Source: Prevotella sp. (GTDB lineage: Bacteria > Bacteroidota > Bacteroidia > Bacteroidales > Bacteroidaceae). Taken from it: DNA of 53,915 nucleotides. A program made the position numbers and the translations under genes. The notes below the pieces were generated by a model. That model was given only the letters and a program-made list of their open reading frames with translations. It ran no database searches and had not been told where the DNA came from. The stretch is from assembly GCA_022788105.1 (NCBI GenBank), contig JALEVZ010000083.1, positions 1 through 53,915 on the forward strand, read 5' to 3'. Shown here piece by piece: positions 2,801 to 47,998 of the stretch (its first letter is position 1; each line of letters starts with the position of its first letter).

Positions 2801-3283
2801 ATGGCACATCACAATTTAGATTCATTAGACAAAAAGATTCTCCATCTCATTGCCGAAGATGCACGAATTCCATTCCTCGAAGTGGCACGTGTGTGCAATG
2901 TCAGTGGAGCAGCTATTCATCAGCGCATACAGAAGCTCACTAACCTCGGTATTCTGAAAGGCTCACAGTTTATAATTGACCCAGAGAAAGTTGGATATGA
3001 GACCTGTGCATACATAGGTCTATACTTAAAAAACCCAGAAAACTTTGACTCGGTAGTAGAAGCATTGAAGAAAATACCAGAGGTGGTGGAGTGTCACTAC
3101 ACCACTGGAGGCTTCGATATGTTCATAAAGATATATGCTGTAAACAACCACCACTTGCTTAACATCATCCACGACAAGTTGCAGCCCCTCGGACTGTCGC
3201 GCAGCGAGAGCATCATCTCGTTCAACGCTGCCATCAACCGCCAGTTGCCCATCATGGATTTGCCCAACGAAGACGAAGACTAA
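2801..3283 (+). CDS. Lrp/AsnC family transcriptional regulator
   Basis: LDSLDKKILHLIAEDARIPFLEVARVCNVSGAAIHQRIQKL helix-turn-helix plus ligand-binding (RAM-like) C-terminus. Confidence 0.93.
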   Translation: MAHHNLDSLDKKILHLIAEDARIPFLEVARVCNVSGAAIHQRIQKLTNLGILKGSQFIIDPEKVGYETCAYIGLYLKNPENFDSVVEALKKIPEVVECHYTTGGFDMFIKIYAVNNHHLLNIIHDKLQPLGLSRSESIISFNAAINRQLPIMDLPNEDED

Positions 3284-3380: not shown

Positions 3381-3448
3381 TGACCTTTTGCGAAGCCCCT
3401 GCCTGTGATGCCGCAACGCAACGTGTCAGCAAAAAGCGACATGCGGTT

Positions 3449-3608
3449 GACACTTTGCTACATTTCTGGCGGTTTTGCTATCGCCAATTCTTAACGTCTG
3501 TTAAAAACCACAAAACATTCCCATTAGGCCGTAGTGACGACGCCATTTGGCCCCTTTGACAACGCCAAAGGGCCGTAGTGACAAGCCCAAAAGGGCACTA
3601 TCATTTTG
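3449..3608 (-). repeat. Composite 22-bp-unit element, copy 1
   Basis: Units 3521, 3543, 3565, 3587 (22 bp each) next to cgccaattcTTAACgtctGTTAAaaacc (3482-3509); reverse orientation relative to copies 2-4. Confidence 0.93.
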
Positions 3609-3626
3609 TCAACTCGCCCCTATGCC

Positions 3627-4106
3627 CTACCCTCTCACATAGTCGGCAAAGGAGAAACGGTGGGCATGGCGCTCGTCCGGCTCATGCCACTCGCGGCTTT
3701 CGAGCTTCCATCCGTCGTAGGGCGGGAAGAAAGCATCGGCCTCGGCAGGCGTGTCGGCAATCTCGGTCAGACACAGACGGTCTGCCACAGCCATCGCCTG
3801 CTCATACACACTCGCACCACCAATGATGTAGACATCTTCGTTTTCGCCGACACTCGCTAACGCTTCGTCGAGCGAGGCGTAGGTGTCGCAGCCAGGAAAG
3901 GCTGTCGTCGTGCGACTCAACACCACGTTACGACGGTTGGGCAGCGCACCTTTCGGCAGCGACTCAAACGTGCGACGCCCCATGATGATGGTGTGGCCCG
4001 TAGTCAACGCCTTGAAGCGCTTCAGGTCGTCGGGCAGCCAATACAAGAGTTTGTTGCCATTGCCTATGGCGCGGTTGGCAGCCACGGCAGCTATTACGTT
4101 TATCAT
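3627..4106 (-). CDS. folA: dihydrofolate reductase
   Basis: MINVIAAVAANRAIGNGNKLLYWLPDDLKRFKALTTGHTIIMGRRTFESLPKGALPNRRNVVLSR. Confidence 0.95.
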   Translation of the reverse strand: MINVIAAVAANRAIGNGNKLLYWLPDDLKRFKALTTGHTIIMGRRTFESLPKGALPNRRNVVLSRTTTAFPGCDTYASLDEALASVGENEDVYIIGGASVYEQAMAVADRLCLTEIADTPAEADAFFPPYDGWKLESREWHEPDERHAHRFSFADYVRG

Positions 4107-7982: not shown

Positions 7983-8132
7983 GGAAAAATAACTAACGAC
8001 ATTTATTTCAGATTCCATATATTTAATGTAACTACAGAAACGCAAGACAGTTAGTGAGAATTAGATTATAAATTTTGAGTTAATTACTGATTTTTAGAAA
8101 AAGGACGACCTCGTGACGAAGTTGTCCTTTTT
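7983..8132 (+). ncRNA. candidate small RNA (promoter to intrinsic terminator, no ORF)
   Basis: TATCTTTG at 7969-7976 with TTG about 20 bp upstream; hairpin aaaaaggacgac-ctcgtgacgaa-gttgtccttttt at 8096-8132; ACTAAC/GTTAGT and ACATT/AATGT pairing inside; no credible ORF. Confidence 0.4.
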
Positions 8133-8138
8133 ATTTTA

Positions 8139-8248
8139 TCTGACCGTATGGGGTATTTCATCTGACCGTATGGGGTGTTTCATCTACCCATACGGGGTTT
8201 CTTATCTGACCTTACGGGGTATTTCATCGACCCATACGGTCGAGTATA
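8139..8248. repeat. 22-bp tandem array, five units (fifth degenerate)
   Basis: Units start at 8139, 8161, 8183, 8205, 8227: tctgaccgtatggggtatttca / tctgaccgtatggggtgtttca / tctacccatacggggtttctta / tctgaccttacggggtatttca / tcgacccatacggtcgagtata. Confidence 0.95.
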
Positions 8249-10241: not shown

Positions 10242-10268
10242 ATTGTCTTCCTTTATTTATATCTTTGG

Positions 10269-10408
10269 CAAAGATAATGCAAGCGAGCGCAATGAAAGCT
10301 TGCTTTCACATTGCCGAGTGCAGCTTATCTTATACAAAGATAATGCAAGCGAGCGCAATGAAAGCTTGCTTTCACATTGCCGAGTGCAGCTTATCTTATA
10401 CAAAGATA
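10269..10408. repeat. 66-bp direct repeat (two full copies plus partial third), internally palindromic and promoter-bearing
   Basis: caaagataatgcaagcgagcgcaatgaaagcttgctttcacattgccgagtgcagcttatcttata at 10269 and 10335, restarting at 10401. Confidence 0.95.
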
Positions 10409-10533
10409 TGACTTTATGCTGACAACAGCAAGTTTTCCAACTAAAATCCTTGCGCCAAGCCAATAAATAAAGGCGTTTTTGTGGTACAGGGCAAAGCCTA
10501 TACTCCACAAAAACGCCTATCGAATATCAAGGC

Positions 10534-10720
10534 AAGAAACCTTTAATATAAAACCAATGAAGCTATATTATAAAAGCAACAAGCCTCTAATATAAAACCA
10601 ATGAAGCTATATTATAAAAGCAGCAAGCCTCTAATATAAAAGCGATGAAGCTTTATTATAAAAGCAGCAAGCCTCTAATATAAAAGCGATGAAGCTTTAT
10701 TATAAAAGCAGCAAGCCTCA
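10534..10720. repeat. 22-bp phased AT-rich array (eight TATAAAA cores, alternating 44-bp super-unit)
   Basis: TATAAAA at 10547, 10569, 10591, 10613, 10635, 10657, 10679, 10701, each exactly 22 bp apart. Confidence 0.95.
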
Positions 10721-10750
10721 ATCAGAAAGCCAGCAGCCCACAGCGGCGAC

Positions 10751-17582: not shown

Positions 17583-17646
17583 TTTACAGACATTGCTGCC
17601 TGTTTATAAAATGGTTGTGACCCGCGGTTTTACCCATCGGGCAGAG

Positions 17647-17820
17647 TTGACAAAATGATAGTGCCCTTTTGGGCTTGTCACTACGGCCTAATGACATCGT
17701 CACTACGGCCTAATGAGGGCGCCAAAGGGCCGTAGTGGGAGCGGCGCCGAGGTTTTAACACACGTTAAGAATTGGCGTTAGATTTTGGCGATAAATCGTA
17801 GCAAAATGTCGCGAAAGTCA
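17647..17820 (+). repeat. Composite 22-bp-unit element, copy 2
   Basis: Units 17651, 17673, 17695, 17717 then constant gagcggcgccgaggttTTAACacacGTTAAgaattggcg (17739-17777) and tagcaaaatgtcgcgaaa. Confidence 0.95.
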
Positions 17821-17854
17821 CAAAAATGGTTACATTTAGTCAAACGCGCAACGC

Positions 17855-23225: not shown

Positions 23226-23260
23226 CATGGTTTCCATGACGACCCATTATACATGACGTA

Positions 23261-23348
23261 GCGATTAAGCTTGCATAACACGGCGATTAAGCTTGCATAG
23301 TGTAGCGATTACACATATATAATATAGCGACGCCATATATATAATATA
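23261..23348. repeat. 22-bp array in M6 protease leader (four phased units plus degenerate edges)
   Basis: gcga core at 23261, 23283, 23305, 23327: tagcgattaagcttgcataaca / cggcgattaagcttgcatagtg / tagcgattacacatatataata / tagcgacgccatatatataata. Confidence 0.92.
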
Positions 23349-32170: not shown

Positions 32171-32239
32171 CATTAAAAACTTCAATAAAAACACTATCAG
32201 GAAGCGACACATACGCCCTGATTTTGTCTTTAGGCTCAA

Positions 32240-32410
32240 GTGACAAAATGATAGTGCCCTTTTGGGCTTGCCACTACGGCCTAATGACGACGCCATTAAG
32301 CCCTAATGACAAGGTCAAAGGGGCCTAATGGGAGAAACAATAAGGTTTTAACAGACGTTAAGAATTGGCGTCACATTTTGCGAAGAAAACATAGCAAAAT
32401 GTCACGAAAA
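32240..32410 (+). repeat. Composite 22-bp-unit element, copy 3
   Basis: Units 32244, 32266, 32288, 32310 then constant gagaaacaataaggttTTAACagacGTTAAgaattggcg (32332-32370) and atagcaaaatgtcacgaaa. Confidence 0.95.
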
Positions 32411-32456
32411 CCGCCTTTTCACAAACAATGCTACATGGCGAAAAACGCCACCCACA

Positions 32457-35210
32457 TCAGTTGAACATCTGAAGCAGCGGCGTCATGAAGCGCGTGAGAC
32501 TCTGTGGCCGCACAGCGCCGCCGTAGGTCGTGCGGTTTCGGGAGTACGCCACGAGCACACGGCGCGTCGCACGGGTGATGGCGACATAAAACTTGCGGGC
32601 GTCTTCTGCCAGACTCGCAGGGTTGTTTTGCGAGTAATAGTTGGGCCAACGGCCGTCTACGGCGTCGAACACTATCACGTTGTCAAACTCAAGACCCTTT
32701 GCCTTGTGTACCGTGGTCACGAACACGCGCTCTGACAAGCTGTGGCTGTTGCAAAGGTCTGCCTCCTTCATGGTGTTCAGCTCCATGACATGCGCCGACA
32801 GCTGCTCTATGAGCGACGGCTCGGCAGCGGCGTCGAGCAGCTCACAAGAGAGGTAGTCGACGACATGGCGCAAGCCTTCTATATCTTCGATGCGCTTCTC
32901 CTGAATCTGCAACTCATAAAAGCGCAGCAGCTCTGACACAAGGGCAGGACGGGCTTCAGACGGCGCACACCGCACATACAGCTGCTCACGCGCCGCACGA
33001 TAGGAGTCGGCGTAAGTGGCACGGAACACATTGGCGCGACGTGTCACCCTGTCTTGCGCCATGAACTCGCGCTGGGCGTCGACCATCGCTGCCGCCTTGT
33101 CGCGGCAATACGCCACGAGGCTACACGTCGCGTTGACGTCTTCGTCGGCGAGGTGGGAGTTGGTGCCAGCGAGATGGAGCGCTGCCAACAGCGACTTGAG
33201 CTTATACACCTTCAGCCCCGGCTCTATCAGCCTGACGACTTTAAGCGAGTCGAAATATGTCGGACACGCCCTATGGAGGTCTATGTCGGGACAGTAGCGA
33301 CGCAGATTGTGGTCGAGTATGTTGTAGTCGTAGTCGGCATTGTGGCCGAGCAGTGGCAGGTCGCCGACATAACTGATGAAGCGGCGCAGTGCCTCGGCAG
33401 GCTCGAGCAGCGTGTGGTGCTTCATCTCCTCGACGATAGGGTTGTCTATATCGCCGAGCTTTGCTGGCACAGGCCGCGTGGTCTTTATAAAAAGCGACAG
33501 CGCTGAGCCTTCCACGATGTGGCCGCGACACATCTTCACTGCCGCAATCTGTACTATGTCGTCTTCAAAAACGTTAAGACCGGTGGTCTCGGTGTCAAAC
33601 ACCACCATCTCGCCAGCGTCGCATGCGCCGACGAAGTCTTGTATGTAGGTGCCGCCATCGGTGCGCAAATAGTCTGACGGCAAGATGGCACGGTTGAGCG
33701 AGGCACGCACGAAGTTGCGGGCGGCATAGCCCTGTTCAAAGACACGCAGACCCTTGAGCAGACGCGACCACGACAGAAAATCTTGGTCGCGCGTTATGAC
33801 GTTGAGATGGGCGAGCAGCAGTTTCATGCCCGGCGAGGAGAAAAGGTCGGAGCCAGACACCTTGAAGTGGGGTATGCCTGCCTCTGTCAGCGCGTGCCCT
33901 ACCTCATCGGCATCGTGGTTGGCGCTCACGATGACCGCCGTGGTGTCGCTGTCTGATGCCTGCAAGTAGCCGCGTGTGCGTGCCACCACGTCGAGCAGCT
34001 CGGCGCCGTAGTTTTCACTTTCCATTATCGTGAGGTCGGAGGGTTCACCCTTCTGGTCGTTGTCCGACGCTGGAAGCAGCGCCTTGTCGATGTGTAGCAC
34101 CTCGGCAGCATAGACGTTGAAGACGTTGAGCAGATAGCTGCGCGACCGATGGTTGACGGTGAGGTGGTGGATGTTGCCGCTGCAACGTGTCTTCAGCATG
34201 TCGAGCGTTGAGAGTTTGGCACCCATAAACGAGAAGATGGCTTGCTGCTCGTCGCCGAGATACATCACCGTGTGTACCTCGTCGGCAGCAAACAGGTCGA
34301 TAAGGGCGAGCTGTAGGGCGTTGAGGTCCTGCACCTCGTCTACCTGTATCCACGGGTAGTGGCGGTAACGGACTGGACCATCGGCGTCTGCACCGCCGAC
34401 AGACGAAGCCGTTGACGCGGCTGACGGCACGGGGTGATTGCCTGCCAGCGCCTGCCGCTCCTCCACCAGCGCGTCATACGACATCAAGAGCAGGTCTTCA
34501 AAGTCGAGCAACTGGTTGTCACGCTTGTACTTTTCGTATTGGCAGGCGTAATACATCTTGTCCAACAGACGTCCGACAGCCACCACTTCGCCGTAGTCGT
34601 AGCCACCGCTATGAAGCGAGTCGCGGTAGAAGGCAGAACGCAGATAGATGTCGGTCATGATCTGGGGTGAGAACGTCATGCCGTGGACACGGCACACCGC
34701 GTTCATGGCGGCGATGTCTTCTGCCGTCAGACACTCTGGGTGCAGGCGTAGCTCGCGGGGATGTGAGTGCATAATCTGGTGCATCAGCCCACACAGATGA
34801 AACACCCCGGCGTAGACACGGCGGCGGTTGAAGTTCTCTGCCACGCTCATCTCGTCTTCTTGCATGAACCGCGCGAGTATGCTTATGGCGTCGTCTTCGT
34901 CGATGACCGATGTCTCGGTCGCCACGATGCCATTGTCGAACAGGAACTTGGAACAGAAGCGATGAACGTTGCCAACATAGACGTCGGAGGTGTCGTCGCC
35001 ACCGAGATTCTGCGCCATGCGCTCACCCATGCCACGCGCCGCGCGGTTGGTAAAGGTGAGACACAGCATGTCGGCATAAGCCACACCAGCAGCATGGGCG
35101 TGACGTATGCGCTCGGTCAGTATTTGGGTTTTGCCACAGCCCGGAGGGGCGAGCACCAGATGGCGTCCGCCACTCGCCTCTATCACTTCTTGTTGACAGG
35201 AATCGTACAT
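32457..35210 (-). CDS. UvrD/REP-type superfamily 1 helicase with embedded DEDDh 3'-5' exonuclease domain
   Basis: LAPPGCGKTQILTERIRHA (motif I), IQVDEVQDL (II), YLGDEQQAIFSFMGA (III), TTVHKAKGLEFDNVIVFDAVDG (V), KFYVAITRATRRVLVA (VI); inserted VVFDTETTGLNVFEDDIVQIAAV...LLGHNADYDYNIL...HLADEDVNATCSL exonuclease. Confidence 0.93.
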   Translation of the reverse strand: MYDSCQQEVIEASGGRHLVLAPPGCGKTQILTERIRHAHAAGVAYADMLCLTFTNRAARGMGERMAQNLGGDDTSDVYVGNVHRFCSKFLFDNGIVATETSVIDEDDAISILARFMQEDEMSVAENFNRRRVYAGVFHLCGLMHQIMHSHPRELRLHPECLTAEDIAAMNAVCRVHGMTFSPQIMTDIYLRSAFYRDSLHSGGYDYGEVVAVGRLLDKMYYACQYEKYKRDNQLLDFEDLLLMSYDALVEERQALAGNHPVPSAASTASSVGGADADGPVRYRHYPWIQVDEVQDLNALQLALIDLFAADEVHTVMYLGDEQQAIFSFMGAKLSTLDMLKTRCSGNIHHLTVNHRSRSYLLNVFNVYAAEVLHIDKALLPASDNDQKGEPSDLTIMESENYGAELLDVVARTRGYLQASDSDTTAVIVSANHDADEVGHALTEAGIPHFKVSGSDLFSSPGMKLLLAHLNVITRDQDFLSWSRLLKGLRVFEQGYAARNFVRASLNRAILPSDYLRTDGGTYIQDFVGACDAGEMVVFDTETTGLNVFEDDIVQIAAVKMCRGHIVEGSALSLFIKTTRPVPAKLGDIDNPIVEEMKHHTLLEPAEALRRFISYVGDLPLLGHNADYDYNILDHNLRRYCPDIDLHRACPTYFDSLKVVRLIEPGLKVYKLKSLLAALHLAGTNSHLADEDVNATCSLVAYCRDKAAAMVDAQREFMAQDRVTRRANVFRATYADSYRAAREQLYVRCAPSEARPALVSELLRFYELQIQEKRIEDIEGLRHVVDYLSCELLDAAAEPSLIEQLSAHVMELNTMKEADLCNSHSLSERVFVTTVHKAKGLEFDNVIVFDAVDGRWPNYYSQNNPASLAEDARKFYVAITRATRRVLVAYSRNRTTYGGAVRPQSLTRFMTPLLQMFN

Positions 35211-38787: not shown

Positions 38788-39018
38788 GGCATTTTATCGC
38801 TAACTTGAAAACTTTTGCAAACAAATTAAGGAGAATAGATACATTATGAGCACTCAACGATGAAATGTGAAGAAAAAAGGCGACAATGTCAATTTCTTTG
38901 AGTAAATTTGCAGTTTACAACGTCATCGCTATATTATGGTACGCGAAAAATAAAGATGTCATGGCGGATCTGGAAAGCAATAGCACACGAAAAGCAGAGA
39001 CTTCTGTATGACGCCACA

Positions 39019-39128
39019 CTATAGCGGCAACAGGAAAAAACTATAGCGGCAACAGGAAAAAACTATAGCGGTAATAGGAACAAACTGTAGCGACGAAAGA
39101 AATATACTATAGAAAAAACAGAAAAACA
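39019..39128. repeat. 22-bp array immediately upstream of hflX
   Basis: ctatag/ctgtag cores at 39019, 39041, 39063, 39085, 39107 (exactly 22 bp apart). Confidence 0.93.
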
Positions 39129-40514: not shown

Positions 40515-42368
40515 ATGGAGTACAGACAGCTTACAGAAGAAGAGATAAGACAACTTGAAGACAACAACTGCTGGGCAGAAGACTGGCAGCGTGTAACCGT
40601 GGCTGAAGAGTTTATGCCTAACTCTATAAAGAACGTAACGTTCTACGGCGACGTGAGACTCGGTGTGTTTGAGAAGACCGTCGAGGTGAGTCAAGGATTC
40701 CTCCGCCGCTCAGGTGTTTACAATGCCACACTCCGCAACGTCACCATCGGCAACAACAGCCTTATTGAGAACATAGGCAACTACATAAACAACTACGTCA
40801 TCGGTTCCGACTGTTACATCTCCAACGTGTGCACAATGGAGACAACGGAAGGGGCGACATACGGTGAAGGCAACATCATAGCAGTGCTCAACGAAGTGGG
40901 CGACGGCAACGTGGTCTCATATCACGGACTTACCAGCCAGATAGCAGCACTCATGGTGAAGCACCATGACAACACAGCGTTTAAGAAAGCACTACGCCGT
41001 CTCATCGCCGAAAACATACAATGCACCGTGCCCGAGACTGGCACCATAGGCAATGACGTAAAGATTGTCAACACCAAAGAGGTAACCAACACCGTTGTCT
41101 ACGACGACTGCGAGATAAACGGAGCCGCTCGAATCAGCGACTGCACCATCATGAGCTCGCCCGAAGCGAGCGTGTTCATAGGCACAGGAGTCATCTGCGA
41201 AAACTCCATCATAGCCCACGGCTCTTCCATTATCAACAGTGTGAAGATGCAAGACTGCTATGTCGGCGAAGCCTGCAAGCTCAGCAACGGCTTCACAGCG
41301 TCGCAGAGCGTGTTCTTCGCCAACAGTTACATGTCCAATGGCGAGGCATGTGCCGCCTTCTGCGGACCGTTCTCGGCAAGCCACCATAAGAGTTCGCTGC
41401 TCATCGGAGGCATGTTCTCGTTCTACAATGCAGGCTCGGCAACCAACTTCAGCAACCACGCCTACAAGATGGGACCCATGCATTACGGCACGATGGAGCG
41501 CGGTGCAAAGACCGCCAGCGGTGCTTACCTGCTCATGCCAGCACACATCGGCACCTTCTCCGTGTGCTTCGGCAAGCTGATGTACCACCCCGACACGCGC
41601 TCACTACCCTTTGCTTACCTCATAGCCTACGGCGACATCATGTATCTTGTGCCAGGCCGCAACCTCACCACCGTGGGTCTTTACCGCGACATACGCAAAT
41701 GGCCGAAGCGTGACATGAGGTCCAAAGACAGTCGCAAGAGCATAGTAAACTTCGACTGGCTCAGCCCCTTCTCTGTAGGAGAGATATTGCAAGGCAAGAA
41801 GATACTTGAGCGTCTGCGCGAAGCATCGGGCGACAACGTGTCCACATACAACTACCACGAATACGTGATAAAGGCCTCATCGCTGCGCAAAGGCATCAAA
41901 TACTACGACATAGCGCTGCGCATCTTCATGGGTGCCGTGCTCAAACGCCACGCCTTAGTAGAGCCGACATCGACCGTTGGCCCTGGAAAGTGGAACGACC
42001 TGTCCGGACTTCTCCTCCCCGACAGCGAGGAACAGAAGTTGGTCAGCGACATTGCCGACGGCACCATCGAGAGCGTTGACGAGATAACCGAGCGCTTCAA
42101 CACCATCAACGACAACTACTCCGAGTATCGTTGGGCATGGGCTTACCGCATGATTCTCGACTACTACGGCCTCACCGAGATAACACCTGCCGACGCCGAG
42201 CGCATACATGCCGACTACATAACAGCCCGCCGCGCATGGATTGCAGAAATAAGGAAAGACGCAGAGAAGGAGTTCCAGCTCGGCGACGTGGAAGAAAGCG
42301 TGTTGCAAAACTTCATTTCGCAGCTCGATAAAGAGATAGATTTCGAGAATATGACATTATATAGTTAA
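40515..42368 (+). CDS. DUF4954 family protein (left-handed beta-helix type)
   Basis: MEYRQLTEEEIRQLEDNNCWAEDWQRVTVAEEFMPNSIKNVTFYGDVRLG and hexapeptide-like repeats. Confidence 0.85.
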   Translation: MEYRQLTEEEIRQLEDNNCWAEDWQRVTVAEEFMPNSIKNVTFYGDVRLGVFEKTVEVSQGFLRRSGVYNATLRNVTIGNNSLIENIGNYINNYVIGSDCYISNVCTMETTEGATYGEGNIIAVLNEVGDGNVVSYHGLTSQIAALMVKHHDNTAFKKALRRLIAENIQCTVPETGTIGNDVKIVNTKEVTNTVVYDDCEINGAARISDCTIMSSPEASVFIGTGVICENSIIAHGSSIINSVKMQDCYVGEACKLSNGFTASQSVFFANSYMSNGEACAAFCGPFSASHHKSSLLIGGMFSFYNAGSATNFSNHAYKMGPMHYGTMERGAKTASGAYLLMPAHIGTFSVCFGKLMYHPDTRSLPFAYLIAYGDIMYLVPGRNLTTVGLYRDIRKWPKRDMRSKDSRKSIVNFDWLSPFSVGEILQGKKILERLREASGDNVSTYNYHEYVIKASSLRKGIKYYDIALRIFMGAVLKRHALVEPTSTVGPGKWNDLSGLLLPDSEEQKLVSDIADGTIESVDEITERFNTINDNYSEYRWAWAYRMILDYYGLTEITPADAERIHADYITARRAWIAEIRKDAEKEFQLGDVEESVLQNFISQLDKEIDFENMTLYS

Positions 42369-42381
42369 TGCCAAGACTATT

Positions 42382-42535
42382 TATAATAAAAGGGAAAGCC
42401 CCTTATAATAAAAAAGAAGGCTATATATAATAAAAGAGAAAGACCCATATAATAAATAAGAAGGCTATATATAATAAAAGGTAAAACCTCATATAATAAA
42501 AGGAAAGAACATATATAATAAAAACAAAGAACAAA
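42382..42535. repeat. 22-bp phased AT-rich array upstream of M16 peptidase
   Basis: tataata cores at 42382, 42404, 42426, 42448, 42470, 42492, 42514, each 22 bp apart. Confidence 0.95.
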
Positions 42536-42587
42536 CATAAATAAAGGCGGAGCCACTGCGTTACGCCACAAAAATACTAACTACAAT

Positions 42588-47422: not shown

Positions 47423-47584
47423 CATAGCGATTAACACCCAACACCGTTTCCAAAGGGGTCCTTTGACAAAAAGAAAGGGCCCCTTTGTCGTTTCCATTAG
47501 GCCCGTTTGACGTCGTCACTACGGCCCTTTGACATCGCCACTACGGCCCTTTGGCAAAGGCGCCGAGGTTTTAACATCTGTTAA
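47423..47584 (+). repeat. Composite 22-bp-unit element, copy 4 (variant left end, truncated right end)
   Basis: Units 47445, 47467, 47489, 47511, 47533 then caaaggcgccgaggttTTAACatctGTTAA (47555-47584); possible extra unit at 47423. Confidence 0.92.
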
Positions 47585-47832
47585 TAAAACAGTTTTCCAA
47601 AACCCGTCTTTTTCTGACAAAAAGTTAGCGCATACGCCTTTTTACTTACACCGTGCAAATATGGCTTACAGACTGCGTTTTTCATAAATATGCAACGCTA
47701 CGTATAATTATTCACCTCACACCCTACGTAACTTGCAGTGCGCCAACTGATTCAAGTCAATTTTCATACACCGCCGTAGCGAAACGAACAAAATATATTC
47801 ACATTTGTTTGCATAATATGCTATAAAATCAG

Positions 47833-47854: not shown

Positions 47855-47941
47855 AGCGTAGGTTAAGGGGTGTCCGAGGTTTCGGGCTGAGATTATACCC
47901 TCATACTTGATCCGGGTAATGCCGGCGAAAGGATTGCAAGG
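47855..47941 (+). promoter_or_regulatory. TPP (THI-box) riboswitch
   Basis: ttaaggggtgtcc...gggCTGAGAttatACCCtcatacTTGATCcgGGTAATgCCggCGaaaGGA matches the conserved thi-box core; upstream of thiamine genes. Confidence 0.93.
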
Positions 47942-47998
47942 TACATAAAAAGTGCCCCTTTTTGTGTGTTTTTTTATTTCATATTTCAGGAAAGCAAA

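Follow-up and report, generated by a model that had tools for sequence, protein, structure and literature searches.

A dispersed intergenic element of four 22-bp dyad units in a Prevotella genome and its counterparts in other members of the genus

The 53,915-nucleotide stretch of a Prevotella sp. genome analysed here (the window) contains, between the convergent genes lrp (2801-3283, AsnC domains) and folA (3627-4106, DHFR), a tandem array of short units beside a small inverted repeat, and the question raised by this locus is whether the arrangement is accidental or represents one copy of a dispersed element and, in the latter case, what such an element might be for. The initial annotation had described a composite intergenic element, made of 22-bp units and a constant block, with four copies in the window, one of them inverted, and this description holds. 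In copy 1, the four units follow one another without gaps (3521-3542, 3543-3564, 3565-3586, and 3587-3608), the TTAAC-N4-GTTAA block is cgccaattcttaacgtctgttaaaaacc (3482-3509), and the terminal unit has exact opposite-strand matches at 17651-17672 and 32244-32265, with 0.00 expected by chance. The TTAAC/GTTAA core is also present at 17752 and 32345, and in a degenerate version at 47568. Copy 1, as delimited by HMM, is larger than the 160-bp stretch noted earlier (Table 1). To that description the present analysis adds the dyads within the units, a rule of unlike half-sites, an even spacing, counterparts elsewhere, and a link to PINSR, a repeat reported by Naito et al. (PMC4755523).

The search of the host genome (2.49 Mb, 130 contigs) revealed approximately 140 copies, which are non-coding. 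The left-end motif TGACAAAATGAWAG gave 126 exact matches versus 0 for reversed controls, a longer form with mismatches gave 151 versus 1, and the core pattern gave 130 versus 8, some palindromic sites being counted twice, i.e. on both strands. The DNA fetched around the matches amounted to 1.24 Mb (1.30 Mb including the window), in which 141 copies were identified by HMM, 135 of them with >100 bits. Only 1 of 126 copy midpoints falls within a called gene, and that call is probably spurious. Neither of the findings that would have undermined the annotation, namely mere chance matches or hits confined to one gene family, was thus obtained. At least one more full copy is present in contigs first taken as copy-free, where two missed copies or fragments were found; the idea that copy-free contigs represent a mobile fraction was dropped, since the length of those contigs may explain most of the pattern. 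No copy was found in viral contigs. Among 85,488 genomes, the exact core-plus-flank pattern occurred in one other record, Prevotellaceae UBA3627, which is identical with G366 of our genus sample (identical coordinates; G399 likewise gave the same coordinates).

Table 1. Positions of the element copies, the parts of copy 1, and other 22-bp arrays in the window
Feature	Position	Strand	Basis or context
Element copy 1, whole	3413..3629	-	nhmmer 189.8 bits, E 2.5e-56; convergent lrp/folA gap
Copy 1 left-end motif TGACAAAATGATAG	3598..3611	-	Exact motif, 126 genome matches versus 0 control
Copy 1 four 22-bp units	3521..3608	-	Sequence; column statistics of 121 copies
Copy 1 dyad centres, CAnnnnGSCnnnnTG or degenerate	3529, 3551, 3573, 3595	-	
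Copy 1 fifth dyad, degenerate	Centre ~3617	-	
Copy 1 core inverted repeat TTTAACAGACGTTAA (TTAAC-N4-GTTAA)	3491..3505	-	+106 bp from left end, 121/129 copies
Copy 1 tail: GAATTGGCGT, then A/T tracts in ~10-bp steps	3416..3490	-	Column statistics; GC spectrum
Element copy 2	17623..17847	+	nhmmer 202.4 bits; convergent gap, NigD-like gene / Fe-S domain protein
Element copy 3	32214..32438	+	nhmmer 198.3 bits; convergent gap, MatE transporter / UvrD-family helicase
Element copy 4, core degenerate	47447..47667	+	nhmmer 131.2 bits; divergent gap upstream of TonB-dependent receptor gene
Non-family 22-bp arrays	8128-8240, 10525-10744, 23252-23340, 39004-39091, 42359-42556		Intergenic, unrelated sequences

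Two features of the surrounding genes were noted separately: the UvrD-family helicase (32457-35210) has an RNase_T (DnaQ-like) exonuclease domain within its C-terminal helicase domain, and a TPP riboswitch lies at 47856-47950, upstream of the TonB-dependent receptor gene.

The full element is ~217 bp long and consists of a degenerate leader unit, the left-end motif, four 22-bp units, the TTTAACANNYGTTAA core, and an A/T-tract tail; in column statistics the order reads degenerate leader unit, TTGACAAAATGAWAG, dyad units, TTTAACANNYGTTAAG core, AATTGGCGT, and A/T tracts in ~10-bp steps. In a gap-free alignment on the left end, the core follows at exactly 106 bp in 121 of the 129 copies with a recognizable core and at +128, i.e. 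one unit further, in four copies, and the number of units is fixed at four in ~94% of copies. The units are dyads of the form CA-NNNN-GSC-NNNN-TG, with the CA/TG and G.C positions 93-100% conserved; dyads are centred at 38, 60, and 82, and degenerate ones at -6 and 16. In many tract columns A and T are about equally frequent, as are G and C in many GC columns, indicating that it is the class of base, and not the strand, that is conserved. Over the ~94-bp array, the strongest period of the GC profile is 11.0 bp, whereas the spectrum of the tail has a weak peak at 9.75-10 bp and that of the whole element a small one at 11.25 bp.

The four-nucleotide half-sites of these dyads (hereafter letters) are drawn from a very small set, and the two letters of a unit rarely match. 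In 363 units, only 19 of the 256 possible words are in use, and AAGG, CTAC, and TTAG account for 82% of the letters. The same letter occupies both halves of a unit in 10 cases versus 80.6 expected, and CTAC is never paired with CTAC (37.7 expected). Complementarity at arm positions 2-5 is low (5-34% versus 21-51% expected), whereas positions 1, 6, and 7 remain palindromic. In the small samples available from two congeners, identical-half units numbered 2 versus 6.3 expected (G236) and 1 versus 4.6 expected (G084, where the centre used may be that of a linker dyad rather than a unit dyad); the sample from UBA3627 was uninformative about this tendency.

No pair of copies exceeds 90% identity, and the median identity to the nearest neighbour is 74%. 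Divergence is, however, unevenly distributed: when copies are compared in pairs, 25 non-anchor columns differ in 3.5% of the comparisons and 77 variable columns in 62%, a contrast that cannot be given by uniform decay of dead copies. Judged from this column pattern, selection seems to act on the copies at their present sites.

Their placement is likewise non-random. Copies are held by 47 of 114 convergent gaps (41%), 17 of 121 divergent gaps (14%), and 56 of 631 co-directional gaps (9%); the convergent preference in the fetched gaps has a Fisher OR of 6.5 (P 2e-15), although occupancy is inflated relative to the whole genome because the 1.3 Mb was selected for its proximity to copies and gene calling relied on a simple home-made script. 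In co-directional gaps, the copies lie at a median of 110 bp from the end of the upstream gene versus 256 bp from the next start, and their orientation relative to the flanking genes is unbiased (29:29). No strand bias with respect to local GC skew or neighbouring genes was detected in the host genome. Neighbouring copies are also evenly spaced: 65 distances, all from the host draft genome, have a mean of 10.5 kb and a CV of 0.40, versus 0.86 +- 0.08 for random placement on the same contigs, and none of 5000 simulations was as even. Distances of <5 kb make up 6% of those observed versus 40% under random placement, and a null restricted to intergenic gaps gave the same answer. Gene layout does not explain this spacing, since 22-bp arrays outside the family, used as an internal control, are not even (CV 0.78 versus null 0.84, P 0.29). 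In a P. intermedia-like genome, some copies, among the matches listed, are 1.4-2.5 kb apart.

The closest congener sampled shares ~71% DNA identity, and the exact left-end motif is abundant in the host alone, with 0-4 matches in each of 119 congeners. A layout pattern ignoring the units was matched in 6 of 399 genus members, including the host genome, always with the same 121-bp span, and the units of the five other genomes differ in sequence from those of the host; the single match in G320 has the sequence of a G366 match and so may be due to contamination or to close relatedness. Repeated families of their own are present in G236, G061, and G084. Furthermore, in 748 kb from 23 congeners (20-kb samples), 35 arrays had a period of 22 bp, of which 17 contained strong dyads; no such array was found in 100 kb of E. 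coli K-12. At gene 3' ends compared between species, an element was present in both at 3, only in the other species at 14, only in the host at 15, and in neither at 76. Positions common to species, considered as proof of a gene-specific function, were thus not found; no particular locus needs the element, and the differing positions imply that the element has been mobile at some point in the past.

The family in G084 (two contigs, 2.7 Mb) is of particular interest. It is ~190 bp long, with four 22-bp units and outer palindromic arms, gave 238 motif matches (on both strands, and one copy may hold several), and is represented ~235 bp downstream of tnaA. As far as the available part of the published description goes, PINSR has a 188-bp consensus and 177-184 intergenic copies per genome, has no coding content, is of unknown function, occurs downstream of P. 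intermedia tnaA, and is confined to one clade, that of P. intermedia/nigrescens (PMC4755523). From these resemblances we infer, with high but not complete confidence, that the G084 family is PINSR; the published consensus itself was not compared. The host element resembles PINSR, so far as PINSR is documented in that part of the paper, in being intergenic, in its approximate length (~217 versus 188 bp), and in being present in >100 copies, whereas 22-bp units, dyads, a letter rule, even spacing, and counterparts in other species do not figure in that portion of the text. The PINSR-like consensus of G084 and the host consensus have a common layout and unrelated unit sequences. Within G084 C1:566992-1738712, all 34 exact PINSR-like matches are listed on the + strand, and strands are mixed elsewhere; this run is unexplained and could reflect replication direction or an effect of the listing.

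Any explanation has to account for the observed architecture, copy number, spacing, gene context, different-letter rule, in-place constraint, and species-specific versions. The reading that we prefer, which we hold tentatively and at somewhat less than an even chance, is that the copies are host-maintained arrays of sites for a dimeric protein that organise the chromosome; binding, the identity of the protein, and the organising role are inferred, and no binding data exist. A dimeric DNA-binding protein would read the array of each copy, four dyads 22 bp (two helical turns) apart would place four dimers on the same face of the DNA, adjoining the TTAAC/GTTAA palindrome and the A/T-tract tail, and ~140 copies in ~10-kb steps, preferentially between converging genes, would be landmarks by which the chromosome is organised or topologically punctuated. 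Recognition sequence and protein would drift together, leaving each species its own units on the same scaffold. Such an array at chromosome scale fits the invariant dyads, the two-turn phase, the in-place constraint, the even spacing, and the convergent gaps, and the species-specific units fit a co-evolving protein. Recurrence of the layout in other letters likewise points away from a random repeat and towards a landmark that organises the chromosome. Tandem 22-bp protein-binding sites adjoining an A/T-rich stretch are also found as iterons at Rep-type plasmid origins; iterons are, however, direct repeats at a single origin, whereas the host element consists of dyad units in ~140 chromosomal copies.

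The copies could instead be a MITE- or REP-like non-autonomous mobile element moved by a transposase in trans, with the even spacing due to target immunity and the intergenic location to purging of harmful insertions. The differing positions between species speak for this account, species-specific versions would fit repeated amplification of a single founder, and the ends, which show only a weak TGACA...TGTCA inversion (imperfect TGACAAAATG / CAAAATGTCA, without comparison to IS ends), resemble weak terminal repeats. We nevertheless consider it unlikely. A boundary scan of 119 copies for target-site duplications gave nothing above noise, no transposase was seen among the neighbours of the copies in the window (no systematic search was made), the internal arrays keep a constant four units, no pair of copies has >90% identity, the in-place constraint is strong, and no sign of recent mobile activity was found. 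PINSR, matched by the G084 family, also fits poorly: it is reported to lack terminal inverted repeats, three quarters of its positions are common to two strains, and it is missing from most strain-specific regions (PMC4755523). Left-only partial copies were considered as remnants of an autonomous element and rejected, their flanks showing neither an insertion nor a transposase by eye. A nearby precedent is BrickBuilt/PgRS, the minisatellite MITEs of Porphyromonas gingivalis, which carry 23-nt (or 41-nt) repeats in 1 to 22.8 units, occur in 19 copies, and have terminal repeats of the IS5 type and, in some cases, target duplications (PMC4596501). Like the host element, they consist of short intergenic tandem repeats flanked by a leader and a tail and are scattered through a Bacteroidales genome; the host element differs in its 22-bp period, its fixed four units, its ~140 copies, and the lack of detected target duplications.

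A strong site for gyrase or another wrapping enzyme, analogous to BIME-2, read mainly through 11-bp phased bendability and removing positive supercoils between converging genes, is a serious alternative, although we regard it as rather improbable and there are no data on gyrase cleavage at the elements. The 11-bp GC periodicity, strongest over the ~94-bp array and small over the whole element, the conservation of base class without strand, and the convergent and 3'-end placement speak for it, and E. coli offers a precedent, in which some BIME-2 are gyrase sites, the 130-bp gyrase motif has GC phased at 10.75 bp, and sites cluster downstream of active operons (PMC6379681). However, the near-invariant CA/TG and G.C positions and the letter rule look base-specific rather than like indirect readout, and a conserved enzyme should need no species-specific versions. 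BIME-2/REP and the host element are both dispersed mosaics of extragenic palindromic units at 3' ends in >100 copies; the host units, in contrast, lack a conserved hairpin, are phased at exactly 22 bp, and avoid perfect palindromes, and the conserved stem-loops of BIME-2/REP were not seen, the dyad centres being anti-complementary and compensatory stems absent.

The same feature weakens the proposal, to which we give little credence, that the element acts as transcribed RNA at the 3' ends of genes, for example as a processing signal or a terminator working in both directions. The placement would suit it, and both strands have folding energies below those of shuffled sequences (z about -3.6 and about -3.4), but covariation among 121 copies revealed no compensatory stem (best anti-diagonal score, 2.2), the dyads are strongly anti-complementary, none of the four window copies has an Rfam match, and orientation is unbiased in co-directional gaps. 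A plain, functionless minisatellite arising by replication slippage, already disfavoured, is very improbable because, although many other intergenic arrays of exactly 22-bp period exist in the host genome, 83 of these have neither dyads nor even spacing, whereas the element has a nearly fixed unit number, conserved flanks, invariant dyads, and regular spacing.

These other arrays are a phenomenon in themselves. With the family masked, 83-87 arrays of exactly 22-bp period (plus multiples) were counted in the 1.3 Mb, and no other lag gave more than six; the classification placed none of them in genes, they have no sequence in common by eye, and no mechanism is proposed for their 22-bp ruler. The exact period in unrelated sequences makes it a testable question how the length of bacterial minisatellites is set. 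A wider proposal, which we regard as doubtful but possible, is that many Prevotella have their own landmark family, with four 22-bp heterotypic dyads, about one copy per 10 kb set by a spacing mechanism, and a fast-evolving reader, together with a process that makes or keeps 22-bp repeats from arbitrary intergenic sequence. With the present findings, PINSR is no longer an isolated curiosity of one oral clade and looks like part of a widespread Prevotella architecture whose rules can be measured (a 22-bp period, four units, half-sites that differ, and ~10-kb spacing); if the elements do organise the chromosome, they would give direct access to the domain-scale organisation of Bacteroidota chromosomes.

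Repeats of other lengths were also encountered. A 66-bp direct repeat (AAAGATAATGCAAGCGAGCG...) at 10260-10391 of the window has 8 matches in the fetched genome, and a similar repeat is present in the congener G236. In locus L171 of G122, arrays of 41-bp period occur alongside 44-bp ones, and 41-nt repeats are known too from PgRS of P. gingivalis.
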